Part shown: positions 41,380-61,358 of the stretch, piece after piece
Numbering within the stretch: position 1 is the stretch's first letter
Layout: every line of letters starts with the position of its first letter
Assembly (NCBI GenBank): GCA_035079385.1
Contig: JAVHKY010000029.1
Span: 2,728,001 to 2,792,000 of the forward strand
Source: Aspidiotus rigidus
Lineage: Eukaryota; Arthropoda; Insecta; Hemiptera; Diaspididae
DNA length: 64,000 bases
Direction of reading: 5' to 3'
Translations under genes and position numbers: made by a program
Notes under the pieces: model-generated
Told to the model about the DNA's origin: nothing
Databases searched by the model: none
The model's input: only the letters and a program-made list of their open reading frames with translations

Positions 41380-44300
41380 TGACTATATGTACAAGCCTTA
41401 CCTCATTAGTAAGGATTGTACTAAGGTTGTACAAACCAGTTAGATCGCGCAGAATTTCATCAAAGCTGCTGTCAGATTCCTGACAAGTTCTTGCCTACAG
41501 GTTACCAAAAACCTTTTGATATAACAACTGTATGAGAGATTTTTTAGCACATCAGATTTCAGTCAAAGATATGGCTACAACTTGTTAATATATTTCGCAT
41601 ATTTCATGCTAATTTTGACTGATTTTTCACCGGAATTCTTTGACGTGAGTATCAATGTATTGGGACAGATTGAGGCAGATCCACTGAGGTGTGAAAAAAG
41701 TAAAATGTAGAGTATAGTAATCATTTTTTTAAAAGTACAACCTTACGTACAAACCTTACCTCATTGGTCAGGTTTGTACTAAGGTTGTACAAACCAGTTA
41801 GATTGTGCAGAATTGTATCAGAACTGCTGTCAGATGACTCACTAGGTCTTGCCTATACGTTACCAGAAAAGTTTTGGAATAACAACAGTATGAGAGATTT
41901 TTTAGCAGATCAGATTCATGTCAAAGATATGGCCGGGACTTTTCAATAGGTATATTTCACATATTTAATGCTAATTTTGACTGATATTTCACTTAAAATC
42001 ACTGGCGATGGTATTATGGAGTTGGGAAAGATTGAGGCAGATCCACTGAGGTGCCAAAAAAGTAAAAAGTTGGGTATAGTAATCATTTTTGTCAAAAGTA
42101 CAACCTTATGTACAAACCTTACCTCATTAGTCAGGTTTGTACTAAGGTTGTACAAACCAGTTAGATTGCGCAGAATTTCACCAAAACTGCTGTTAGATAC
42201 CTGACAAGTTCTTGCCTACACGTTACCAAAAAACTTTTGGAATAACAATAGTATGAAAAATTTTTTGGCAGATCAAATTTCAGTCAAAGATATGGCTAAA
42301 ACTTGCCAATATAGGTATTTCACATATTTCCTGCTAGTGTTGACTGATATTTCACTTAAATTCACTGGCGATGGTATTATGGAGTTGGGAAAGATTGAGG
42401 CAGATCCACTGAGGTGCGAAAAAAGTAAAAAGTTGGGTATAGTAATAATTTTTGTCAAAAGTACAACCTTACGTACAAACCTTACTTCATTAGTCAGGTT
42501 TGTACTAAGGTTGTACAAACCAGATAGATTGTGCAGAATTGTATCAGAACTGCTGTCAGATGACTCACTAGGTCTTGCCTATACGTTACCAGAAAACTTT
42601 TGGAATAACAACAGTATGAGAGATTTTTCAGCAGATCAGATTCATGTCAAAGATATGGCCGGGACTTGTCAATATATTTCACATATTTCATGCTAATTTT
42701 GACTAGGTAATTTTTCACCATAATTCTTTGATACGAGTATCAAGGTATTGGGACAGATTGAGGCAGATCCACTGAGGTGTGAAAAAAGTAAAAAGTAGAG
42801 TATAGTAATCATTTTTGTTAAAAGTACAACCTTACGTACAAACCTTACCTCATTGGTCACGTTTGTACTAAGGTTGTACAAAACCAGTCAGATTGTGCAG
42901 AATTGTATCAGAACTGCTGTCAGATGGCTCACTAGGTCTTGCCTATACGTTACCAGAAAACTTTTGGAATAACAACAGTATGAGAGATTTTTTAGCAGAT
43001 CAGATTCATGTCAAAGATATGGCCGGGACTTTTCAACATATTTCACATATTTAATGCTAATTTTGACTGATATTTCACTTAAATTCACTGGCGATGGTAT
43101 TATGGAGTTGGGAAAGATTGAGGCAGATCCACTGAGGTGCAAAAAAAGTAAAAATTAGAGTATAGTATTCATTTTCGTCAAAAGTACAACCTTACGTACA
43201 AACCTTACTTCATTAGTCAGGTTTGTACTAAGGTTATACAAACCAGTTAGATTGTGCAGAATTTCACCATAACTGCTGTTAGATACCTGACAAGTTCTTG
43301 CCTACACGTTACCAAAAAACTTTTGGAATAACAATAGTATGAAAAATTTTTTGGCAGATCAAATTTCAGTCAAAGATATGGCTAAAACTTGCCAATATAG
43401 GTATTTCACATATTTCCTGCTAGTGTTGACTGATATTTCACTTAAATTCACTGGCGATGGTATTATGGAGTTGGGAAAGATTGAGGCAGATCCACTGAGG
43501 TGCAAAAAAAGTAAAGAGTTGGGTATAGTAATAATTTTTGTCAAAAGTACAACCTTACGTACAAACCTTACTTCATTAGTCAGGTTTGTACTAAGGTTGT
43601 ACAAACCAGATAGATTGTGCAGAATTGTATCAGAACTGCTGTCAGATGACTCACTAGGTCTTGCCTATACGTTACCAGAAAACTTTTGGAATAACAACAG
43701 GTGGAGAGATTTTTTAGCAGATCAGATTTCAGTCAAAGACATGGCGGGGACTTGTTAATATATTTCACATATTTCAGGCTAATTTTGACTGATTTTTCAC
43801 TTCCATTGTTTGGTGATGGTATCATGGAGTTGGGAAAGATTGAGGCAGATCCACTGAGGTGCGAAAAAAGTAAAAAGTTGGGTATAGTAATAATTTTTGT
43901 CAAAAGTACAACCTTACGTACAAACCTTACTTCATCAGTCAGGTTTGTACTAAGGTTGTACAAACCAGATAGATTGTGCAGAATTGTATCAGAACTGCTG
44001 TCAGATGACTCACTAGGTCTTGCCTATACGTTACCAGAAAACTTTTGGAATAACAACAGTATGAGAGATTTTTCAGCAGATCAGATTCATGTCAAAGATA
44101 TGGCCGGGACTTGTCAATATATTTCACATATTTCATGCTAATTTTGACTAGGTAATTTTTCACCATAATTCTTTGATACGAGTATCAAGGTATTGGGACA
44201 GATTGAGGCAGATCCACTGAGGTGTGAAAAAAGTAAAATGTAGAGTATAGTAATTATTTTTGTTAAAAGTACAACCTTACGTACAAACCTTACCTCATTG

Positions 44301-46640
44301 GTCAGGTTTGTACTAAGGTTGTACAAACCAGTTAGATTGTGCAGAATTGTATCAGAACTGCTGTCAGATGACTCACTAGGTCTTGCCTATACGTTACCAG
44401 AAAACTTTTGGAATAACAACAGTATGAGAGATTTTTTAGCAGATCAGATTCATGTCAAAGATATGGCCGGGACTTTTCAATATATTTCACATATTTAATG
44501 CTAATTTTGACTGATATTTCACTTAAAATCACTGGCGATGGTATTATGGAGTTGGGAAAGATTGAGGCAGATCCACTGAGGTGCGAAAAAAGTAAAAAGT
44601 CGAGTACAGTAATCATTTTTGTCAAATGTACAACCTTACGTACAAACCTTACCTCATTAGTCAGGTTCGTACTAAGGTTGTACAAACCAGTTAGATCGCC
44701 CAGAATTTCACCAAAACTGCTGTTAGATACCTGACAAGTTCTTGCCTACACGTTACCAAAAAACTTTTGGAATAACAATAGTATGAAAAATTTTTTGGCA
44801 GATCAAATTTCAGTCAAAGATATGGCTAAAACTTGCCAATATAGGTATTTCACATATTTCCTGCTAGTGTTGACTGATATTTCACTTAAATTCACTGGCG
44901 ATGGTATTATGGAGTTGGGAAAGATTGAGGCAGATCCACTGAGGTGCGAAAAAAGTAAAAAGTTGGGTATAGTAATAATTTTTGTCAAAAGTACAACCTT
45001 ACGTACAAACCTTACTTCATTAGTCAGGTTTGTACTAAGGTTGTACAAACCAGATAGATTGTGCAGAATTGTATCAGAACTGCTGTCAGATGACTCACTA
45101 GGTCTTGCCTATACGTTACCAGAAAACTTTTGGAATAACAACAGTATGAGAGATTTTTCGGCAGATCAGATTCATGTCAAAGATATGGCCGGGACTTGTC
45201 AATATATTTCACATATTTCATGCTAATTTTGACTAGGTAATTTTTCACCATAATTCTTTGATACGAGTATCAAGGTATTGGGACAGATTGAGGCAGATCC
45301 ACTGAGGTGTGAAAAAAGTAAAAAGTAGAGTATAGTAATCATTTTTGTTAAAAGTACAACCTTACGTACAAACCTTACCTCATTGGTCACGTTTGTACTA
45401 AGGTTGTACAAACCAGATAGATTGTGCAGAATTGTATCAGAACTGCTGTCAGATGACTCACTAGGTCTTGCCTATACGTTACCAGAAAACTTTTGGAATA
45501 ACAACAGTATGAGACATTTTTTAGCACATCAGATTCATGTCAAAGATATGGCCGGGACTTTTCAATATATTTCACATATTTAATGCTAATTTTGACTGAT
45601 ATTTCACTTAAATTCACTGGCGATGGTATTATGGAGTTGGGAAAGATTGAGGCAGATCCACTGAGGTGCGAAAAAAGTAAAAAGTCGAGTACAGTAATCA
45701 TTTTTGTCAAATGTACAACCTTCCGTACAAACCTTACCTCATTAGTCAGGTTCGTACTAAGGTTGTACAAACCAGTTAGATCGCGCAGAATTTCATCAAA
45801 ACTGCTGTCAGATGACTCACTAGGTCTTCCCTACATGTAACCAAAAAACTTTTGGAATAAAAATAGTATGAAAGATTTTTTGGCAGATCAGATTTCAGTC
45901 AAAGACATGGCTGGGACTTGTCAATATATTTTACATATTTCATGATAATGTTGACTGATTTTCCACTATAATTCTTTGGCGTCGGTATTTTTCTGTTGGG
46001 ACAGATTGAGGCAGATCTACCGAGGTGCGAAAAAAGTAAGATGTCGATTATAGTAATCATTTTTGTCAAAAGTACAACCTTACGTACAAACCTTACTTCA
46101 TTAGTCAGGTTTGTACTAAGGTTGTACAAACCAGTTAGATTGTGCAGAATTGTATCAAAACTGCTGTGAGATGCTTCAATAGGTCTTGCCTATACGGTAC
46201 CAAAAAATTTTGATATAACAAAAGCAGTATGAGAGACTTTTTAGCAGATCCGATTTCAGTCAAAGACATGGCTAAAATTCGTCAATATATTTCACCTATT
46301 TCATGCTAATTTTGACTAATTTTTCACCGTAATTCTTTGACGTGAGTATCAAAGTATTGGGACGGATTGAGGCAGATCCACTGAGGTGCGAAAAAAGTAA
46401 AAATTGGAGTATAGTATTCATTTTCGTCAAATGTACAACCTTACGTACAAACCTTACCTCGTTAGTCAGGTTTGTACTAAGGTTGTACAAACCAGTTAGA
46501 TCGCGCAGAATTTCATCAAAACTGCTGTCAGATGACTCACTAGGTCTTCCCTACATGTAACCAAAAAACTTGTGGAATAACAACAGTATGAGAGATTTTT
46601 CGGCAGATCAGATTCCAGTCAAAGACATGGCGAAGATATT
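41380..46640 (+). repeat. Tandem satellite, ~361 bp unit, about 15 copies
   Basis: The landmark GTACTAAGGTTGTACAAACC recurs near 41421, 41783, 42143, 42508, 42868, 43229, 43595, 43951, 44314, 44676, 45035, 45398, 45760, 46115 and 46480, spacing ~356-365 bp. Each unit has a ~56 bp near-palindrome (GTACAACCTTA...TAAGGTTGTAC, e.g. 42098-42153). Units fall into subtypes: the block at 42253-42696 recurs almost identically at 44783-45226 and largely at 43339-43758, so a higher-order structure of three to four units exists. Open frames of 139-147 codons on both strands are explained by a unit length near a multiple of three; I do not regard them as genes. Confidence 0.95.
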
Positions 46641-48082: not shown

Positions 48083-48479
48083 TTTATCTTTTGAATTTGG
48101 GTTTTAATTGCCACCCAAGTCTGCGCACCGGATTTTCAGTCTGGTATTCAAGCTACCCTATTCGTTTAAGTCTCCAAAAGGCTCTCCACGCGTTTGCTAT
48201 TCTCAATTTCATATCCAAGTTCATTCCATCTTGTTTTACTTCAGGCAAAAAGGATTGCTATACTCGATTTTTTACCTCTTTCTCACCACAGAAGAGGTCT
48301 TTCTTTCTCCCCCTGCACTCGGATAAAGAAGCCAGGGAATCGAAATTTCCATGAAATATATGAGTCTTAGGCATGTCCTATACTGATGGAATCACTTTTG
48401 CCGAAAACGTTCCCAATATTTTGAATGGCAAGTTATTGCTTTCCCAAACGTCAAAACAAGACCTAGTGAAACACTTGAC
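48083..48479. other. No gene recognised; degenerate satellite-like sequence
   Basis: Carries fragments resembling the spacer near 47100-47300 (TACTTCAGGCAAAA...GCTATACT). No exon. Confidence 0.4.
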
Positions 48480-50273
48480 AGCAGATTCAATACAATTCCG
48501 GACAATCTAACTGGTTTGTACAACCTTAGTACATACCTGACTAATGAGGTAAGGTTTGTACGTAAGGTTGTACTTTTGACAAAAATGATTACTATAATCG
48601 ACATCTTACTTTTTTCGCACCTCAGTGGATCTGCCCCAATCTGTCCCAATACTTTGAAACTCACGTCAAAGAATTCCAGTGAAAAATTAGTCAAAATTAG
48701 CATGAAATATGTGAAATATATTGACTAGTCCCAGGCATGTCTTTCACTGAAATCTGATCTGCTAAAAAATCTCTCCTCCTGTTGTTATTCCAAATGTTTT
48801 CTGGTAACGTATAGGCGAGATCTAGTGAGTCATCTGACAGCAGTTTTGATACAATTCTGCGCAATCTAACTGGTTTGTACAAGCTTAGTACAAACCTGAC
48901 TAACGAGGTAAGGTTTGTACGTAAGGTTGTACTTTTGACAAAAATGATTACTATACCCAACTTTTTACTTTTTTCGCACCTCAGTGGACCTGCCTCAGTC
49001 TTTCCCAACTCCATAATAATTTAAGTGAAATATCAGTCAAAATTAGCATGAAATATGTGAAATATATTAACAAGTTTTAGCCATGTCTTTCACTGAAATC
49101 TCATCTGCTAAAAGATCTCTCATACTGTTGTTATTCCAAATGTTTTCTGGTAACGTATAAGCGAGACCTGGTGAGTCATCTGACAGCAGTTTTGATACAA
49201 TTCTGCGCGATCTAACTGGTTTGTACAACCTTAGTACAAACCTGACTAATGAGGTAAGGTTTGTACGTGAGGTTGTACTTCTGACAAAAATGATTACTAT
49301 ACCCAACTTTTTACTTTTTTCGCACCTCAGTGGACCTGCCTCAATCTTTCCCAACTCCATAATACCATCGCCAGTGAATTTAAGTGAAATATCAATCAAA
49401 ATTAGCATGAAATATGTGAAATATATTGACAACTTTTAGCCATGTCTTTGACTGAAATCTGATCTGCCAAAAAATTGTTCATACTATTGTTATTCCAAAA
49501 GTTTTCTGGTAACATAATTATAGGGAAGACCTAGTGAATCATCTGACAGCAGTTTTGGTACAATTCTGCGCAATCTAACTGGTTTGTACAACCTTAGTAC
49601 AAACCTGACTAATGAGGTAAGGTTTGTACGTAAGGTTGTACTTTTGACAAAAATGATTACTATACTCGATTTTTCATTTTTTTCGCGCCTCAGTGGATCT
49701 GCCTCAATCTGTCCCAACTCCATAATACCATCGCCAGAGAATTGAAGTGAAAACTCAGTCAAAATTAGCATGAAATAATATGTGAAATATATTAACAAGT
49801 TTAAGCCATATCTTTGACTGAAATCTGATCTGCTAAAAAATCTCTCATACAGTTGTTATATCAAAAGTTTTTTGGTTATGTGTAGGCAAGACCTTGTCAG
49901 GTATCTGACAGCAGTTTGGATGAAATTCTGCGCGATCTAACTGGTTTGTACAACCTTAGTACAAACCTGACTAATGAGGTAAGGTTTGTTCGTGAGGTTG
50001 TACTTTTGACAAAAATGATTACTATACCCAACTTTTTACTTTTTTCGCACCTCAGTGGATCTGCCTCAATCTTTCCCAACTCCATAATACCATCGCCAGT
50101 GAATTTAAGTGAAATATCAGTCAAAATTAGCATGAAATATGTGAAATATATTAACAAGTTTTAGCCATGTCTTTGACTGAAATCTGATCTGCCAAAAAAT
50201 CTCTCCTCCTGTTGTTATTCCAAATGTTTCCTGGTAACGTATAGGCGAGACCTATAGTGAGTCATCTGACAGC
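48480..50273 (-). repeat. Satellite array, inverted orientation (first part)
   Basis: Five units of the ~361 bp satellite, reverse-complemented relative to 41380-46640, with hairpins at about 48520, 48875, 49222, 49584 and 49947. The sixth unit is interrupted after CTGACAGC by the Polinton-type element and resumes at 56508. Confidence 0.95.
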
Positions 50274-50301
50274 AGTAGTAAGGTCCCCCCTTCGGTACAC
50301 C

Positions 50302-50745
50302 TGTACCGAAAGGGTGACTGTATGGAAAAAAAATATTTGGAAAAAAAAAATTGAAAAAAAAAAATAATAAAAAAAAAATTGAAAAAAAAAATAAAATAAA
50401 AAATAATTATATTATTTCAACCTTCGCCACGAGCCTAGAACTGTACCGAAAGGGGGACTGTATAAAAAAATAAAATAATAAAAAAAATTAAAAATTAAAA
50501 AAAAATAAATAAAATAAAAAATAAATATATTGTTTTATATGTCAGTGTGAGCCTAGAACTGTACCGAAAGGGGGACTGGATGAAAAAAGTATATCTAATA
50601 AGTCTATAAGTGTACCGAAAGGGTGACTGAATAAATTAATAAAAATAAATAAATTAATTAATTAATTTAAAAAATAAAATAAAAATAAAAATATATTATT
50701 TCAAACACCCAATGAGTCTAGAAGTGTACTGAAAGGGGGACTACA
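50302..50745 (+). repeat. Subterminal iterons, left end (five copies)
   Basis: TGTACCGAAAGGGGGACTG or a one- to two-base variant appears near 50303, 50441, 50561, 50610 and 50727, mostly preceded by GAGYCTAGAA and separated by A/T-only spacers. All five are in the same orientation. Confidence 0.9.
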
Positions 50746-50967
50746 TGGAAAAAGATGTTTTTCTTTTTTTAGACCTACCTACCTACCTCTATGAACCATG
50801 TTTACAGGATAAGCTTTCAAAAGCAAATGAATACTTTTTTCAAGATACACCTACTTATATACCTACTTTTTGATGAAAATTATCCACTCTGATTTTATTA
50901 AAGGACAGTAATATTTCAACTCTTTGTCTGCACAACCACAAAAATCAAAATCACATCTACATTCACA

Positions 50968-51085
50968 TAGACAGTGGTCGTTTTTCGTCGATTTTGGTCG
51001 TTTTCAGTCGAAATTGGCTCTTTTTGGTCGTTTTTAGTCGATTTTGGTTGTTTTTAGTCGAAATTGGCTCTTTTTGGTCGTTTTT
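50968..51085 (+). repeat. Short tandem repeat GGTCGTTTTTAGTCGATTTT
   Basis: Variants of an ~18-20 bp unit (GGTCGTTTTT, AGTCGATTTT, AGTCGAAATTGGCTCTTTTT) are repeated head to tail, just outside the Cys-rich ORF; the mirror copy is at 55702-55819. The same units reappear inside the 5' end of the integrase gene. Confidence 0.85.
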
Positions 51086-51152
51086 ATTTTGCTTGATTTT
51101 GGTGAAATAAAACTACGAGTAGATTGGATGTCCCGGATGAGGAGAAAATTTT

Positions 51153-51833
51153 CTAGATATATCTCAGGTCGAGTAATTCATCGTCATTGTCCTCGTCGCT
51201 GTATCTTCCAGGTTGTGGCATATAGTAATCACTATCTGTTGTGTAGTATGAATAGTCACTCTCGCTCTCGCTCTCACCCAGTTCTGATGAGTTGTATGAT
51301 TGTAATAGTTCGTATTCAACTAATTTTTGTAGAGTTTGATATAGGTCTGCAGTGATGATTCTACATTCCGTAAGACAGTTGCAATAGAGTGGGAAATCAG
51401 TGATAGTTTCAGTGGAACATGTACATTCTTTACATGTATCTGGACAAAAACAAAATCGATCTGTATGAACGTGATAAATTGGTACTACTTCGACAAATTT
51501 CTTACCATTGTACATTACAAACCCAGTATTTTCAGGTATAGAGTTTGGGGAGATGCGTATAGTAATATTATTTAGAACTAGTGTCTGAAATGTCTCATCA
51601 ATTTCGAATGAATCACCACCATCCAATACACCTCCCTTAACATCTGTATGGTAGCAAATAATATTGTATATTACATTCGGTACCATATCTCGCACATGTT
51701 TCAATGGTCTGTAAATTTTATTACAATCTGGTCTATCGCATTTGTAGGAGTAATTTTTTTCAATGTTTTTAAATGCTTTTTTAGGATCGATATGAATTTG
51801 TTGAATAGCTCGTAAAATATTTGGTTGCGCCAT
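51153..51833 (-). CDS. Polinton arm: uncharacterised Cys-rich protein (left copy)
   Basis: 226 residues from ATG at 51833 (the longer frame begins at a TTG). I do not recognise the family. Visible: CDRPDC near the N-terminus, a CFCPDTCKECTCS cluster and CNCLTEC, which could bind zinc, and a strongly acidic, Ser/Tyr-rich tail (ELGESESESDYSYY, DEDNDDELLDL). It lies 52 bp beyond the integrase stop on the same strand. It occupies the terminal position of the arm, where Polintons often carry lineage-specific genes. Confidence 0.75.
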   Translation of the reverse strand: MAQPNILRAIQQIHIDPKKAFKNIEKNYSYKCDRPDCNKIYRPLKHVRDMVPNVIYNIICYHTDVKGGVLDGGDSFEIDETFQTLVLNNITIRISPNSIPENTGFVMYNGKKFVEVVPIYHVHTDRFCFCPDTCKECTCSTETITDFPLYCNCLTECRIITADLYQTLQKLVEYELLQSYNSSELGESESESDYSYYTTDSDYYMPQPGRYSDEDNDDELLDLRYI

Positions 51834-51885
51834 GTAAGCTGTCTCATAAGACAATGAGTTTAATTATCACATCTCCTCCTTTATA

Positions 51886-52794
51886 TTAAAATTTACTTTT
51901 TTGGAGTTCTTGTTTATAAAATTTACCTAAAATTTTCTCACCATCCAGAGATTCTATGGTATAAGTGATAGGATCTGTATAGTGGATAGCGGTTACAACA
52001 AAAATTTCTCTCGTCCAATTACGTACATATTTATTTGTAAAAATATCCTTCTTTTTAGTTATTCTCACACGGTTACCTATTTGAAAAGTAGGTCTTTGTA
52101 ATTGAAATTTTTCCAGAGGGTACATACGATTATAAACGTTTTCTTCATTTTTCTTCAAGGACGCTTCAACAGGAGTCATACCTATAGTTCGATGTATACT
52201 TTTCTCATTATACTGTTTCAGAATAGAGGGTAAAATTTTAATCCATTGAAAATTTCCATTAATTTCGAAGTGTAGACGTAATTTGTTGTTCAACGATTTA
52301 TTGAAACGTTCCACAATAGAAGATTTCTTCTCACTAAATACATGATAAATTTGTATATGATATTTTCCCAATAGTTTTTTTAGCCTCGAATTTACAAATT
52401 CTTTTCCTAAGTCGGTATTTAGTAAACAAGGTCTCCTTTTACTCTTTAAAAGTACTTGTTCAAAAGCATCCCGTACTGCAGATCCAGTTTTTTTCTTCAG
52501 AGGTACAGACCACGCATACTTTGAAAACATATCTATTATATTTAGAATATATTTAAAATTGAGGTTGTCTTTAGAATATCGCGACATAATTAATAAGTCT
52601 GCAGCCCAGATTTGATCTATTCCTTTCACAATGATACGACGTGTTTTAAAATTCTTAATCACTTTTTTATGCAATTCTTGCGCGAGTAATTCGTTTTTTT
52701 TTTGTCGTTTTTGGTCTTTTTTGACCGTTTTTAAGTGAATCTGGCTTTTTTTGGTCGATTTCAGTCGGTTCTGGTTGTTTCTGGTTGTTTTCAT
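51886..52794 (-). CDS. Polinton arm: retroviral-type integrase (left copy)
   Basis: 302 residues with an rve-fold catalytic domain: D66 (WAADLL), D128 (LLNTDLGKEF) and E162 (SIVERFNKSLNN), a D,D-33-E arrangement. The C-terminal domain (IGNRVRITKKKDIF...GKFYKQEL) is the SH3/chromo-like tail seen in Polinton integrases. Residues 1-36 are Lys/Gln/Asn-rich and derive from the GGTCGTTTTT-type tandem repeat also found outside the genes. No N-terminal HHCC zinc motif is visible. The catalytic triad is intact, so it could act on the element ends or in trans. Confidence 0.92.
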   Translation of the reverse strand: MKTTRNNQNRLKSTKKSQIHLKTVKKDQKRQKKNELLAQELHKKVIKNFKTRRIIVKGIDQIWAADLLIMSRYSKDNLNFKYILNIIDMFSKYAWSVPLKKKTGSAVRDAFEQVLLKSKRRPCLLNTDLGKEFVNSRLKKLLGKYHIQIYHVFSEKKSSIVERFNKSLNNKLRLHFEINGNFQWIKILPSILKQYNEKSIHRTIGMTPVEASLKKNEENVYNRMYPLEKFQLQRPTFQIGNRVRITKKKDIFTNKYVRNWTREIFVVTAIHYTDPITYTIESLDGEKILGKFYKQELQKSKF

Positions 52795-52887
52795 GTCTGG
52801 AAAAACGTAATTTAAAAGTATAAACTGACGAACGTATTTTTGTTAGACAATGACAATAAAAATTACAAAATATTTTTCTGCACATAT

Positions 52888-53280
52888 CTATTCCATCAAG
52901 AATTTTAAACATAAATGACCACAAATCACTTCATCAATTTGTTGGTCCTGTTCGCTATTAAAAAATATCACACTATTTATAAAGTATTTCTGTATTTCAG
53001 TAGGAGGACCGACTCCAAAACTATCGTAATACTGTACTGTTGATCCCATCTTTCTGTATGCTACCCAATGTGAACCACCACCAATGCTCAAATCCATATT
53101 GACAACAGCTGATTCATTTTTACGTGGACCTGTTCTAGGTAGTGTATCTCGCATAAAAACACCTCGGAAATGAGGAATACCCAACTTTTTTGCATAAAAT
53201 AGTATATCAAAATTGCTCAATGGAGTTTTTTTTTTTTTAACATCAATTCTTTCAAAAGACCATTTCCTGACGTAGATTTT
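52888..53280 (-). CDS. Polinton arm: adenain-like cysteine protease (left copy), no ATG
   Basis: The open frame covers 130 codons (stop at 52888) without an early ATG; the longest Met/TTG-started version begins at 53220. Counting from 53220, the catalytic residues of the adenovirus-type maturation protease are present: H51 (GGSHWVAY), D66 (YYDSFG), Q91 to Q94 region (EQDQQIDEV) and C100 (ICGHLC). The family is usually a little longer at the N-terminus. A run of 13 T/A lies at the 5' side. Lack of ATG may mean a lost start, a non-AUG start or homopolymer error; both arms share it. Confidence 0.8.
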   Translation of the reverse strand, partial: KIYVRKWSFERIDVKKKKTPLSNFDILFYAKKLGIPHFRGVFMRDTLPRTGPRKNESAVVNMDLSIGGGSHWVAYRKMGSTVQYYDSFGVGPPTEIQKYFINSVIFFNSEQDQQIDEVICGHLCLKFLME

Positions 53281-53368
53281 TTATTCAAGTATATACCTTT
53301 TCCTTCCATAGCGCGATTATGACGGATTTTTTCCTCGAGTAAACGATTATTTGTTTTTTTATTTTCAT

Positions 53369-53418
53369 AAGCGTTATAAATATTACTGGTTCATTAACCA
53401 GTAATATTTATAACGCTT
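53369..53418. other. Axis of the Polinton palindrome
   Basis: Around 53393.5, ...TTACTGGTT-CATT-AACCAGTAA... forms a 25 bp-arm hairpin with a 4 nt loop that continues outward as the arms. On the right side a frame (…NKKTNNRLLEEKIRHNRAMEG…) is open from the axis to a stop near 53573 and has no start, as if the junction truncated a longer gene whose end overlaps the protease frame. Confidence 0.85.
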
Positions 53419-53506
53419 ATGAAAATAAAAAAACAAATAATCGTTTACTCGAGGAAAAAATCCGTCATAATCGCGCTATGGAAGGAAAAGGTATATACTT
53501 GAATAA

Positions 53507-53899
53507 AAAATCTACGTCAGGAAATGGTCTTTTGAAAGAATTGATGTTAAAAAAAAAAAAACTCCATTGAGCAATTTTGATATACTATTTTATGCAAAAA
53601 AGTTGGGTATTCCTCATTTCCGAGGTGTTTTTATGCGAGATACACTACCTAGAACAGGTCCACGTAAAAATGAATCAGCTGTTGTCAATATGGATTTGAG
53701 CATTGGTGGTGGTTCACATTGGGTAGCATACAGAAAGATGGGATCAACAGTACAGTATTACGATAGTTTTGGAGTCGGTCCTCCTACTGAAATACAGAAA
53801 TACTTTATAAATAGTGTGATATTTTTTAATAGCGAACAGGACCAACAAATTGATGAAGTGATTTGTGGTCATTTATGTTTAAAATTCTTGATGGAATAG
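53507..53899 (+). CDS. Polinton arm: adenain-like cysteine protease (right copy), no ATG
   Basis: Identical mirror of the left-arm protease. The frame is open from 53507 to the stop at 53899 with H, D and C catalytic residues intact. The same absence of an early ATG applies; the A13 run is at 53549-53561. Confidence 0.8.
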   Translation, partial: KIYVRKWSFERIDVKKKKTPLSNFDILFYAKKLGIPHFRGVFMRDTLPRTGPRKNESAVVNMDLSIGGGSHWVAYRKMGSTVQYYDSFGVGPPTEIQKYFINSVIFFNSEQDQQIDEVICGHLCLKFLME

Positions 53900-53992
53900 A
53901 TATGTGCAGAAAAATATTTTGTAATTTTTATTGTCATTGTCTAACAAAAATACGTTCGTCAGTTTATACTTTTAAATTACGTTTTTCCAGAC

Positions 53993-54901
53993 ATGAAAAC
54001 AACCAGAAACAACCAGAACCGACTGAAATCGACCAAAAAAAGCCAGATTCACTTAAAAACGGTCAAAAAAGACCAAAAACGACAAAAAAAAAACGAATTA
54101 CTCGCGCAAGAATTGCATAAAAAAGTGATTAAGAATTTTAAAACACGTCGTATCATTGTGAAAGGAATAGATCAAATCTGGGCTGCAGACTTATTAATTA
54201 TGTCGCGATATTCTAAAGACAACCTCAATTTTAAATATATTCTAAATATAATAGATATGTTTTCAAAGTATGCGTGGTCTGTACCTCTGAAGAAAAAAAC
54301 TGGATCTGCAGTACGGGATGCTTTTGAACAAGTACTTTTAAAGAGTAAAAGGAGACCTTGTTTACTAAATACCGACTTAGGAAAAGAATTTGTAAATTCG
54401 AGGCTAAAAAAACTATTGGGAAAATATCATATACAAATTTATCATGTATTTAGTGAGAAGAAATCTTCTATTGTGGAACGTTTCAATAAATCGTTGAACA
54501 ACAAATTACGTCTACACTTCGAAATTAATGGAAATTTTCAATGGATTAAAATTTTACCCTCTATTCTGAAACAGTATAATGAGAAAAGTATACATCGAAC
54601 TATAGGTATGACTCCTGTTGAAGCGTCCTTGAAGAAAAATGAAGAAAACGTTTATAATCGTATGTACCCTCTGGAAAAATTTCAATTACAAAGACCTACT
54701 TTTCAAATAGGTAACCGTGTGAGAATAACTAAAAAGAAGGATATTTTTACAAATAAATATGTACGTAATTGGACGAGAGAAATTTTTGTTGTAACCGCTA
54801 TCCACTATACAGATCCTATCACTTATACCATAGAATCTCTGGATGGTGAGAAAATTTTAGGTAAATTTTATAAACAAGAACTCCAAAAAAGTAAATTTTA
54901 A
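53993..54901 (+). CDS. Polinton arm: integrase (right copy)
   Basis: Mirror copy of 51886-52794, amino-acid identical over all 302 residues, with D66, D128 and E162 intact. It starts at ATG 53993 and overlaps in another frame an 85-codon open frame that is a shadow. Confidence 0.92.
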   Translation: MKTTRNNQNRLKSTKKSQIHLKTVKKDQKRQKKNELLAQELHKKVIKNFKTRRIIVKGIDQIWAADLLIMSRYSKDNLNFKYILNIIDMFSKYAWSVPLKKKTGSAVRDAFEQVLLKSKRRPCLLNTDLGKEFVNSRLKKLLGKYHIQIYHVFSEKKSSIVERFNKSLNNKLRLHFEINGNFQWIKILPSILKQYNEKSIHRTIGMTPVEASLKKNEENVYNRMYPLEKFQLQRPTFQIGNRVRITKKKDIFTNKYVRNWTREIFVVTAIHYTDPITYTIESLDGEKILGKFYKQELQKSKF

Positions 54902-54953
54902 TATAAAGGAGGAGATGTGATAATTAAACTCATTGTCTTATGAGACAGCTTAC

Positions 54954-55634
54954 ATGGCGCAACCAAATATTTTACGAGCTATTCAACAAATTCATATCGA
55001 TCCTAAAAAAGCATTTAAAAACATTGAAAAAAATTACTCCTACAAATGCGATAGACCAGATTGTAATAAAATTTACAGACCATTGAAACATGTGCGAGAT
55101 ATGGTACCGAATGTAATATACAATATTATTTGCTACCATACAGATGTTAAGGGAGGTGTATTGGATGGTGGTGATTCATTCGAAATTGATGAGACATTTC
55201 AGACACTAGTTCTAAATAATATTACTATACGCATCTCCCCAAACTCTATACCTGAAAATACTGGGTTTGTAATGTACAATGGTAAGAAATTTGTCGAAGT
55301 AGTACCAATTTATCACGTTCATACAGATCGATTTTGTTTTTGTCCAGATACATGTAAAGAATGTACATGTTCCACTGAAACTATCACTGATTTCCCACTC
55401 TATTGCAACTGTCTTACGGAATGTAGAATCATCACTGCAGACCTATATCAAACTCTACAAAAATTAGTTGAATACGAACTATTACAATCATACAACTCAT
55501 CAGAACTGGGTGAGAGCGAGAGCGAGAGTGACTATTCATACTACACAACAGATAGTGATTACTATATGCCACAACCTGGAAGATACAGCGACGAGGACAA
55601 TGACGATGAATTACTCGACCTGAGATATATCTAG
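54954..55634 (+). CDS. Polinton arm: uncharacterised Cys-rich protein (right copy)
   Basis: Mirror copy of 51153-51833, identical in sequence, with the same Cys clusters and acidic tail. ATG at 54954 follows GGAGGAGATGTG by a short leader. Function unknown. Confidence 0.75.
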   Translation: MAQPNILRAIQQIHIDPKKAFKNIEKNYSYKCDRPDCNKIYRPLKHVRDMVPNVIYNIICYHTDVKGGVLDGGDSFEIDETFQTLVLNNITIRISPNSIPENTGFVMYNGKKFVEVVPIYHVHTDRFCFCPDTCKECTCSTETITDFPLYCNCLTECRIITADLYQTLQKLVEYELLQSYNSSELGESESESDYSYYTTDSDYYMPQPGRYSDEDNDDELLDLRYI

Positions 55635-55701
55635 AAAATTTTCTCCTCATCCGGGACATCCAATCTACTCGTAGTTTTATTTCACCAAAATCAAGCAAAA
55701 T

Positions 55702-55819
55702 AAAAACGACCAAAAAGAGCCAATTTCGACTAAAAACAACCAAAATCGACTAAAAACGACCAAAAAGAGCCAATTTCGACTGAAAACGACCAAAATCGAC
55801 GAAAAACGACCACTGTCTA
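55702..55819 (-). repeat. Short tandem repeat, right copy
   Basis: Mirror of 50968-51085 (AAAACGACCAAAATCGACTA units). Confidence 0.85.
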
Positions 55820-56041
55820 TGTGAATGTAGATGTGATTTTGATTTTTGTGGTTGTGCAGACAAAGAGTTGAAATATTACTGTCCTTTAATAAAATCAGAG
55901 TGGATAATTTTCATCAAAAAGTAGGTATATAAGTAGGTGTATCTTGAAAAAAGTATTCATTTGCTTTTGAAAGCTTATCCTGTAAACATGGTTCATAGAG
56001 GTAGGTAGGTAGGTCTAAAAAAAGAAAAACATCTTTTTCCA

Positions 56042-56480
56042 TGTAGTCCCCCTTTCAGTACACTTCTAGACTCATTGGGTGTTTGAAATAATATATTTTT
56101 ATTTTTATTTTATTTTTTAAATTAATTAATTAATTTATTTATTTTTATTAATTTATTCAGTCACCCTTTCGGTACACTTATAGACTTATTAGATATACTT
56201 TTTTCATCCAGTCCCCCTTTCGGTACAGTTCTAGGCTCACACTGACATATAAAACAATATATTTATTTTTTATTTATTTTTTTTTAATTTTTAATTTTTT
56301 TTATTATTTTATTTTTTTATACAGTCCCCCTTTCGGTACAGTTCTAGGCTCGTGGCGAAGGTTGAAATAATATAATTATTTTTTATTTTATTTTTTTTTT
56401 CAATTTTTTTTTTATTATTTTTTTTTTCAATTTTTTTTTTCCAAATATTTTTTTTCCATACAGTCACCCTTTCGGTACAG
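56042..56480 (-). repeat. Subterminal iterons, right end (five copies)
   Basis: Mirror of the left iterons; CAGTCCCCCTTTCGGTACA occurs near 56046, 56159, 56210, 56322 and 56462, separated by T/A-only spacers. The right arm is ~6 bp shorter overall, accounted for by homopolymer differences here. Confidence 0.9.
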
Positions 56481-56507
56481 GTGTACCGAAGGGGGGACCT
56501 TACTACT

Positions 56508-57075
56508 GACAGCAGTTTTGATACAATTCTGCGCGGTCTAACTGGTTTGTACAACCTTAGTACAAACCTTACTAATGAGGTCTTAGGTTGTACATAAGGT
56601 TGTATTTCAGCGGAAAATGGTTGTTACACTTGACTTTTGGTTTTTGCTCACCTCAGTGGATCTCCCTCAATTGGTCCCAACTGTAAGATCTTGACACCAA
56701 AGAATTATAATGAAAAATCAGTCAAAATTAGCATGAAATATGTGAAATATATCGACAAGTCCCAGCCATATCTTCGACATGAATCTGATCTGCTAAAAGA
56801 TCTCTCATACTGTTGTTATTCCAAAAGTTTTCTGGTAACGTATAGGCAAGACCTATTGAAGCATCTCACAGTAGTTTCATTACAATTCCGGACAATCCAA
56901 CTGGTTTGTACAACCTTAGTACAAACCTGACTAATGAGGTAAGGTTTGTACGTAACATTGTACTTTTGACAAAAATGATTACTATACCCAATTTTTTACA
57001 TTTTTTGCACCTCAGTTGGTCTGCCCCAATCTGTCCCAACTCCATGATATTATTGCGAGAGAATTGAAGTGAAAA
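56508..57075 (-). repeat. Satellite array, inverted orientation (second part)
   Basis: Continuation of the unit split by the Polinton plus one more unit; hairpins at about 56546 and 56905. After ~57075 similarity fades. Confidence 0.9.
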
Positions 57076-57690
57076 ATAAATTGGCTTGAAATACTTGAAT
57101 TAGGATGAAAAAGTGTTAGCTATAGTCATTCCAGACTGGAATCTCATGGTTGCCAAAATTCTTCAACGATTCTCAATTGTAAAATTTTCTTGGGTAACAC
57201 TAGACTTCAGTCCATTTTAAACATTTTGAGTAACTTAATTTTAAAAAAATATAGTTTTATTAGGTTGTACTTTAGGCAAAAACAATTTCTATACTGGACT
57301 TTTTATTTTATTTTTTTTTATTTTTCCTCCTCAGGAGACCTCCCTCCATATATCCCGGCAATGGGATGCAGGCGCCGGAAAATTGCATTTAAAAAAACTT
57401 ATTACCTAAAAGAAGACCACACAATAAGGGTCAACATTTGGCTGTTATAAGACCTACAGAAGGGAGTTTGCATTGGGATATTAAAAAATACCGTATCATC
57501 TACAACTTGTTCCAGACCACCTCCTGTACAAGAAGACCTAGCAAACATTAGAAAAGTGTTTCATATTATTCATAATTGTTTGCAAGAGGGTATTCGGTTT
57601 CCATTGATCTTACAGTAAATATTTACTGTCCCGCATTTTCTATAAGGCTGATGTATTCAATACCTGAACATTTTCAACAAAAACGACGAT
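57076..57690. other. No gene recognised; degenerate satellite flank
   Basis: Sequence resembling the non-hairpin spacer seen near 48240 (TTTAGGCAAAAACAATTTCTATACT). No coding exon. Confidence 0.45.
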
Positions 57691-57874: not shown

Positions 57875-60326
57875 TTAAGATCGTCCGAACGAGAAATCAC
57901 GGTGTGAATCATAAACCTGTTCGATCAAGCCATCTTCCGGAATATACGAGTTGAGTATAGTGATACCGTCAGTGTTGAGGTGACGCAGTATCTCTATATT
58001 CTCGAGGGCGATACGTTTACGGTAGGAATTCTCCTTATGGAGGAGCTTTTCGGATCCCTCGCGGAAACTGTGGCCACTGTTAATCAAATGATCAGCGAAA
58101 GCTGACTCCCCTAAGCGTCCCTTCTTCCAAGACTTCAGGTGCTCAGCTACTCTAACTTTCATCTGGCGGCTGGTCTCACCAATATAAAAGCCTCCACAAT
58201 CCTCACATTCCATCTTATAAACACCACTCCTTTCATCAACCGGTATGGGATCCTTCAGTCTCACAAACAACCTCTTGACTGTGGTGAGGTTGTAAAACGC
58301 GGGTCTGAAACCAAACGGGCGAAGGGCCCGACCCAATTGCTGGGAGAAATTCCCCAGGAAAGGGAGACTGATCCAACGCAAACGGCGATCACGGATCGTG
58401 TCTCGGGGGAGGGAGGTGGTGGAATCAAGAAGGCTCCTCGTAACTTTCCTCCGAACCATCACGTCAACGTCGACATTGACTCCATTCACTCTAGCCAGGT
58501 GTTTTATGGTAAGTAATTCTTTCTTAAAGGCAGATTGACTCAACGGAATACGAGTCAGTCTGTGAACTAGGCTATGAAAAGCAGCCATCTTATGAGCAAC
58601 AGGACCGAACGAACCACCGTGGACTAAAACATCGGTCGTAGTATCTTTCCTGTAAATTCCAAACTTATGGATACCGTCTATTATAGAGATCGATAAATCC
58701 AAAAAGTTGATGGAAAATACCCCTATTTTCAACGTAAATTTGATGGAAGGGTACCAGGAATTGAGATACCTCAGAAACTCACCAAGGAGATCTGGGTGAC
58801 CAGTCCAGGTACATAGAACGTCATCAACGTACCTGTGCCAGTAGTGAATATGATTAAGTAACACCTGGTTCGAGGAAAAGAGGTCAAGTTCAAACTTAGA
58901 CATGAAAACTTCGGAGATAAGAGAGCCTAGAGGTGATCCAATAGGGATCCCTACTTCCTCAGGGAACTCGAAAAATTTCCCTTCAAATTTACAGAAGTTA
59001 GGGGACCAGCAAGTATTCAGGAGATCAAAAAATTCCTGAAGCTCATTGTGAGGAATGTTAGCTCTAATGAGTAGCTCACCCATCCGCTGGATAGTAGCAG
59101 CCTTAGGAATATTTGGAAACAAACCAACAACATCAAACGAGCAGATGGTCGTCCCTGGGGGAAGGCTTACATCCCTGAGGACGTCAGTTAAAAAGGCCGA
59201 ATTCAAGACCGAATGAGGAGATTCGAAATCAATGCGATTTTTGAACCAACGGTCAAGGAATTTGGCAAGGAGGTAGGTAGGAGAGGAGACAAAAGAAACG
59301 ACGGGTCGCATCGGGGTATTCTTCTTATGCACTTTGGGCAACCCGTAGAGGAGGGGGGGGTGTGGGGTTAGGAACCAGGACGGCTTTTTTCAAAGCAGGA
59401 GTTTTGATAATAGCCTTACTCCTGTTGATGACACTCCTAACTTCTCTAACGTGCTTAGGAAAGCTGAAATCCCCACTCTCTTTAGCACCACACTGCTGTA
59501 GGACTTCATGGACCTTAGAAGAATAGGCCGACCTCTCCATCACTACAACAGCGTTGCCCTTGTCAGCCTTAGTGACGATTAGATCTCCCTCTTTCATCTT
59601 CCTCTTTAAACCCTGAATCACTCCTCCCAATTTATTGCTCATACGAGGGAGGGGGTTATTACGGACCAATTCAGCACAGACTTTCTGGGTATTGTAACCA
59701 GGACCAATCTTAACCGCAAGATCCGCAACAACATTCGCCAAGGTTTCATCATTCTTAAGGGGAGGCAGACTGAATTTCAAACCTTTCTCAAGGAGGGCAG
59801 TTTCGTCACTATTAAACACTACCTGACTATTATTTATGAGGGGGGGATGGAATTTGTGAACAACAACACCGTCACTCCCCCCTTCCTCAACCACATCCTC
59901 ATTAACCTTCATTAGGGAGGACAACTTCTTATTTTTCCTCTCCTTCAACTTCACCTCAAACTTCCGACACTTTAAATTGACGTCACGCATGAAGTAATCA
60001 AACTCAAGGGGGGGGGGGAGCACACCGGAGAGTCTCGAATGGACCATAAGGTTTAATCTAGTCGCAATATTAAATTTACCATACCATCTTCGCAACTCCG
60101 TTCTGATCCACTTCTCCCTCATATAATTCTCCAGTTTCTTAGTCGTAATCTTACAATCGGAATAAAACCGGAATTTAACGAACTTAGGTCTCAAATGCAA
60201 AGCTAAACACCGACGAAGAAACCAAATATGAGAGGAAAACGAAGCGCGTTGCTTCCGAAATTTCAGAAAAAGGAACGATAAATACGCCGCAGAAGCGTTC
60301 TCAATTAAACGATACGGTATGCACAT
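57875..60326 (-). pseudogene. PLE polyprotein (RT plus GIY-YIG endonuclease), one frameshift
   Basis: The upstream part from ATG 60326 contains the PLE-typical LIVTKADKGNAVVVM segment; the downstream part has GLPKVHK (TRT-like motif), FDVVGLFPNIP, GIPIGSPLG, RYVDDVL (RT catalytic Asp pair) and at the C-terminus a GIY-YIG nuclease (SGVYKMECEDCGGFYIGETS, then R and H residues). It replicates by target-primed reverse transcription. The two parts are in different frames; the break is in the C8 run at 59352-59359 (minus strand), where one fewer C would restore continuity. Otherwise about 815 codons are intact, so the copy is recent or the frameshift is a sequencing error. Confidence 0.9.
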
Positions 60327-61186: not shown

Positions 61187-61190
61187 TACA

Positions 61191-61358
61191 AACTTCCGCT
61201 AGGTTTGCAGCGAACACTCGGGCTGTTTCCCTGTTCCTTCTACACCCCACCTGCGCCGAGACGTTACCGGGTCAAACTTCCGCTAGGTTTGCAGCGAACA
61301 CTCGGGCTGTTTCCCTGTTCCTTCTACACCCCACCTGCGCCGAGACGTTACCGTTGGT
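61191..61358 (+). repeat. 84 bp perfect tandem duplication
   Basis: AACTTCCGCTAGGTTTGCAG and the following sequence to ACGTTACCG are repeated with period 84 and no visible mismatch. Because 84 is a multiple of three, open frames repeat a 28-residue peptide, but I see no gene. GC content is higher than the surroundings. Confidence 0.9.

Follow-up and report, generated by a model that had tools for sequence, protein, structure and literature searches.

The 64,000-nucleotide window of Aspidiotus rigidus DNA studied here (contig JAVHKY010000029.1, positions 2,728,001 to 2,792,000) carries a palindromic, Polinton-derived element of about 6.2 kb (window positions 50274-56507), which starts AGTAGTAAGG and ends CCTTACTACT. 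The element is made of the integrase end of a 12.4-kb sister of Polinton type, present as two inverted copies, and probably arose by snap-back synthesis on extrachromosomal replicating DNA.

Arms, axis and sister copies

The arms, their spacer and the target-site duplication are seen directly in the assembly. The left arm (50274-53391, 3118 nt, minus strand) and the right arm (53396-56507, 3112 nt, plus strand) are separated by the 4-nt spacer CATT (53392-53395). Their alignment of 3112 positions is free of substitutions; the arms differ by two indels, of 5 nt and of 1 nt, both in A/T runs. Each arm ends in a terminal inverted repeat of ~640 nt (left, 50274-50918, with internal GTACCGAAAGGG sub-repeats; right, 55869-56507), outside which stand 6-bp copies of GACAGC (50268-50273 and 56508-56513). 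Both flanks belong to a 359-nt satellite in the same orientation (48457-50276 on the left, 56506-57158 on the right); when 120 nt of each flank are joined through a single GACAGC, the five best matches to satellite monomers of window positions 1-50000 reach 88-91% identity in alignments of 206-216 columns, showing that the empty site is ordinary satellite.

What points to an origin for this structure is its axis. The assembly (441 Mb, 102 contigs) was searched for relatives, its match lists giving lower bounds; 130 integrase matches were listed, and 13 of the loci, all outside the window, have an integrase 98-100% identical to that of the element (one with a stop, one in two pieces), and the sequences of all 13 sisters were compared. 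Twelve of them run unbroken across the axis position as ...cgctgcactTGGTT-CATT-AACCAGTAATATT..., where the palindrome reads ...ATTACTGGTT-CATT-AACCAGTAATATT; the thirteenth (L020) has no match at that position. The parental TGGTT-CATT-AACCA, uninterrupted in these twelve, is a 5-bp stem with a 4-nt loop located at the exact turning point of the palindrome (TGGTT, 53387-53391; AACCA, 53396-53400; the spacer corresponds to the loop). As a chance background, stems of at least 5 bp with loops of 3-8 nt start at 99 of 8569 positions in a stretch of sister C33 (1.2%), and those with a 4-nt loop at 14 (0.16%). Both arms end within 4 nt of one parental position, which fold-back predicts and the joining of two separate breaks does not. 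The hairpin thus supports the snap-back origin that an earlier reading of the sequence (hereafter, the original prediction) had proposed.

The left arm is identical to the integrase end of C33 (L011) across all 3118 nt, terminus included; of this sequence, 5 + 1 nt are missing from the right arm. The eleven other sisters compared differ from the left arm by 13-65 substitutions and 14-343 gapped positions in global alignment, partly because the terminal sub-repeats vary in number; sister C50 shows no mismatch to the right arm until its last 22 nt. The identity with C33 bears out the recent origin originally proposed, and C33, at 12.4 kb, is the kind of longer relative that had been suggested as a target for searching.

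From axis to terminus, each arm carries a protease-like, an integrase and a Cys-rich frame. The integrase frames (51886-52842, minus strand; 53945-54901, plus strand) both span 318 codons without a stop; the right one, with its first ATG at 53993, matches the integrase domain rve (PF00665; 3.7e-10, 40.4 bits against a cut-off of 32.6). By name, its relatives include proteins of the scale insect Parthenolecanium corni (53-56%) and of Triatoma dimidiata (43%), the latter called 'Putative polinton-1 pi' (best 120 of 498 matches listed); searches of viral contigs for such relatives yielded no confirmed locus. The right protease-like frame (53507-53899, plus strand) is the copy that was scanned with Pfam and matches Peptidase_C5 (PF00770) at 15 bits, below the cut-off of 21.3; its left counterpart (52888-53280, minus strand) comes from the frame listing. 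For the Cys-rich frames (51153-51863, minus strand; 54924-55634, plus strand), a protein search with the right copy found a single, distant database relative. No polymerase, ATPase or capsid occurs among the listed frames of at least 80 aa in the element (the Pfam scan covered the protease, integrase and Cys-rich frames). The original prediction had described a palindrome with these mirrored genes, a GACAGC duplication and no polymerase, ATPase or capsid, and all of this holds, the absences for listed frames of that size.

Some further features of the coding regions and surroundings were recorded. Near the start of the protease-like frame (53507-53580 and mirror) there is no ATG; the frame overlaps there, in another reading frame and at a homopolymer run, the end of a phospholipase-like frame. 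Repeats of 10 nt of the GACCAAAAAC type encode the start of the integrase frame (53993-54100 and mirror) and reappear as a 50-nt tandem past the Cys-rich frame (55701-55812 and mirror). To the left of the element, the 359/363-nt satellite forms two arrays in opposite orientation (41386-46631 and 48457-50276). To the right, a reverse transcriptase frame (RVT_1; 57875-59389) also matches GIY-YIG, weakly and below cut-off, a combination found in Penelope-like elements; farther on are about two copies of an 84-nt unit with 100% matches (61189-61353).

Related elements in the assembly

Sister C33 (5190710-5203139, target duplication GCTTTA) represents what we call type A. Inward from its integrase end it encodes the Cys-rich, integrase and protease-like frames, a phospholipase A2-like frame (PF08398) to whose 3' part the palindrome axis maps, frames of 267 and 234 aa, a double jelly-roll capsid (PF21738, 1.1e-46), an A32-type ATPase (PF04665, 5.2e-7) and, last, a frame starting MTQAF with a Rho_N domain, which ends without a polymerase domain. 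Given that C33 itself has no polymerase domain, the absence of a polymerase from the palindrome need not stem from palindrome formation, and we set aside the idea that the gene was lost in that process.

A type B copy on C21 (887342-898057, 10.7 kb, duplication CTTTTC; L044, C21:887300-892600, and L045, 894434-898100) has both ends in common with C33: about 4 kb on one side, at 97-99% for the most part with one stretch at 94%, and about 1.2 kb on the other side, at 94-99%. Here the MTQAF frame continues into a family B polymerase, in an open frame of 1903 aa. Beyond it lie a second Cys-rich frame, a frame resembling TATA-binding protein (PF00352, 2.2e-44; L045:889-1422) and a 162-aa frame; no integrase or capsid was found in type B. 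The second Cys-rich frame (L045:464-886) resembles the Cys-rich frame of the palindrome (54924-55634) at 24% over 98 residues (E 1e-8 in a single comparison). Polymerases of the type B subfamily match at no fewer than eight loci, the matched part being free of stops in all eight, and none of the eight has, on its contig, a listed type A integrase or capsid less than 500 kb away; a ninth match (C56:5622422), beside a terminal repeat of the family, has five stops. Conversely, near-full-length type A capsids number 14. The matched part is free of stops in 13, and 11 lie 4.2-5.0 kb from a type A integrase; no listed polymerase falls inside any of their elements, the nearest being 10 kb off and outside the terminal repeats. 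In a related family used as a control (integrase ~52%), all 11 copies hold integrase, capsid and polymerase within 13 kb; these counts, like those for types A and B, come from the matches listed and are lower bounds. Beside the sister integrases L019 and L020, two of the 13, no listed type A capsid occurs, and three type A capsid frames (C13:11333953, C13:11390754, C11:7639825) have no listed type A integrase on their contig and are possibly further deletion forms. The two-element family, with its shared ends, is a second and perhaps larger find.

Other palindromic copies, which the original prediction had proposed to look for, were found at three places in the assembly, each a Polinton insertion with a 6-bp duplication. 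The C54 palindrome (L022:2480-6839, duplication ATTACC) is the only one with substitution-free arms (2175 and 2183 nt, with 9-nt and 1-nt indels and a 2-nt spacer) and belongs to a different family, its integrase being 44% identical to that of the window element. The other two are older: on C23 (L023, duplication AATGTG) the arms are 94.5% identical around a non-palindromic centre of 100-220 nt, depending on the criterion, and at C29:8.18 Mb (L035/L036, duplication CTTCAG) they are ~95% identical around one of ~50 nt. L035 and L036 do not count as two events; a single event was copied along with its flanks. We also dropped two candidates for clean palindromes, C11:628614-637077 (duplication CTGGTG) and C52:5705411-5713119: these are exactly symmetric inverted polymerase pairs with sampled outer arms 99.9% identical, but their centres are unique sequence, and the pairs are very long terminal repeats that include polymerase sequence. 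At C52:12.895 Mb (C52:12886400-12904420, L046-L048), inverted arms that are 99-99.8% identical in sampled stretches extend at least ~8.9 kb outward from the centre and bear polymerase matches at mirrored places; the 109-nt stretch between the aligned arms itself contains a smaller inverted repeat. This locus was left out of the palindrome count, its termini lying beyond the sequence sampled.

Finally, perfect 6-bp duplications border all four short derivatives examined: L024 (3396 nt, CATGGT), L027 (1291 nt, AATTAG), L028 (1686 nt, GTTAAT) and L029 (1113 nt, CTTGCC). That derivatives of 1113-3396 nt carry them suggests that the terminal repeats suffice for mobilisation.

Origin of the palindrome

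Under snap-back synthesis, a strand begun at the integrase-side terminus would traverse the Cys-rich, integrase and protease-like genes and stop at the hairpin, where its 3' end would fold on the 5-bp TGGTT/AACCA stem and be extended, with the strand as its own template, as far as the terminus. Once replicated, the resulting hairpin would become a linear palindrome usable at both ends, for a Polinton integrase to insert with a 6-bp duplication. The single-stranded intermediate of this scheme is inferred; the polymerase would most likely be the family B enzyme of the partner type B element, and since that polymerase sits on a separate element, protein priming of replication is presumed.

The scheme would have integration follow palindrome formation, as the original prediction held. 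C33 has unlike terminal repeats at its two ends, and the left arm follows the integrase-side version at least as far as a 6-nt difference that lies ~130 nt short of the terminus; C33 is the sole comparator with far-end sequence, and the comparison accordingly favours, without proving, insertion of a ready-made palindrome. The improbable converse is that a type A element inserted first and was rearranged later: at the hairpin a fork or repair strand would have turned back on itself and been copied as far as the terminal repeat, from where homology would have let it change to the left terminal repeat and so return to the left flank. Such an origin in place could use the same hairpin, would find homology for its second switch in the ~640-nt terminal repeats and would keep the 6-bp duplication; it requires two switches, however, and the integrase-side sequence confines the second to the last ~130 nt of the left arm. 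Palindromes are also a known type of sequencing and assembly artefact, and ours was judged from the assembly, yet an inverted chimera or a missed adapter is very hard to credit here: an artefact would mirror the flank too, whereas the element lies between two different satellite stretches of one orientation that restore an empty site with one GACAGC, its axis coincides with a parental hairpin sequence, and around the C54 palindrome, too, the flanks are not mirrored and each bears ATTACC. The most serious competitor, though still the less likely one, keeps the fold-back on an extrachromosomal element and places it at a resected double-strand break filled by a host polymerase, rather than in protein-primed strand displacement. 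Yeast foldback inversions are described as centred on natural inverted repeats of 3-15 bp and as arising after resection and Pol delta synthesis (PMC10622511), and C33 encodes no polymerase domain. On the other side, there are partner elements whose polymerase frames are open; the end product in sequence would be the same, and no specific point speaks against the host enzyme.

Several observations weigh against snap-back synthesis, or against its generality. Among the listed integrase matches, the family of the window element has a single palindromic insertion. The nearest cross-axis relative of the C54 palindrome (L033, 94-95% in aligned pieces) has no matching stem, which leaves the C54 fold-back site hypothetical; in the two older palindromes the centre is not palindromic, which means that a clean axis is not universal; and the symmetric polymerase pairs at C11 and C52:5.709 Mb, with their unique centres, are long-repeat elements and not axis palindromes. 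The case is, moreover, built on assembled sequence. We nevertheless prefer snap-back synthesis on extrachromosomal DNA as the origin of the window element.

How the palindrome was then mobilised can be addressed in part. The original prediction had it possibly mobilised in trans, which the short 1.1-3.4 kb derivatives with their 6-bp duplications make likely; its two integrase frames are open, on the other hand, and it might have supplied its own integrase, while a polymerase would be needed in trans. Interference with the parent or helper is possible. As for amplification, the listed integrase matches give one palindrome and 13 sister loci (integrated copies only, a lower bound), which tends to speak against it. 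A broader, tentative view, which we hold with somewhat less than even confidence, is that of a multipartite Polinton in which type A, with capsid and integrase, and type B, with the polymerase, have termini in common and rely on each other, the window element being a third component; the shared polymerase would continually shed integrating snap-back genomes and thereby leave a fossil record of the defective genomes of a virus-like element of animals.

Relation to known systems

The extrachromosomal replication of Polintons has so far been inferred mainly from gene content. With integrated snap-back copies, and the hairpin kept in the sisters, single-stranded intermediates of replication or repair would have left a physical record that could be counted across genomes. 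Likewise, a polymerase-less capsid/integrase element and a polymerase element with the same ends would make trans-complementation of Polintons directly testable. Among the papers listed in literature searches, none announces palindromic or two-element Polintons in its title or the opening of its abstract.

By its sequence, the window element is Polinton-derived and non-autonomous and not a complete Polinton, a filing that follows from the absence of a polymerase both from the element and from C33. Like Polintons/Mavericks, it has AG...CT ends, ~640-nt terminal repeats, an rve integrase and a 6-bp duplication (GACAGC; GCTTTA for C33), long terminal repeats are present at both ends of the sister, and C33 adds the capsid and the A32-type ATPase. 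It differs in being palindromic and in lacking the double jelly-roll capsid, the A32-type ATPase and the family B polymerase, of which C33 too lacks the polymerase domain. For the adenovirus-type protease of Polintons, the match of the protease-like frame (PF00770) stays below the cut-off.

As in snapback genomes, one genome end is duplicated head-to-head around the parental fold-back site. Kikuchi et al. are said to have described, in 1985, a hairpin or palindromic derivative of a protein-primed linear plasmid of Kluyveromyces lactis, reportedly cytoplasmic, with no integrase and no chromosomal insertion. Adeno-associated virus (AAV) is a parvovirus that replicates by rolling hairpin. Its snapback genomes occur in symmetric and asymmetric forms and comprise one genome end as a self-complementary molecule with its inverted terminal repeat, a dimer after second-strand synthesis (PMC8235507); the mix of symmetric and asymmetric palindromes in this assembly resembles those forms, except that the AAV molecules were seen in particles and ours are integrated copies with target duplications. 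The foldback inversions of yeast mre11/sae2 mutants (PMC10622511) share with the window element the short natural inverted repeat at the axis; there it rearranges a chromosome and leads to dicentrics, whereas here it stands at the centre of a mobile element with a target duplication.

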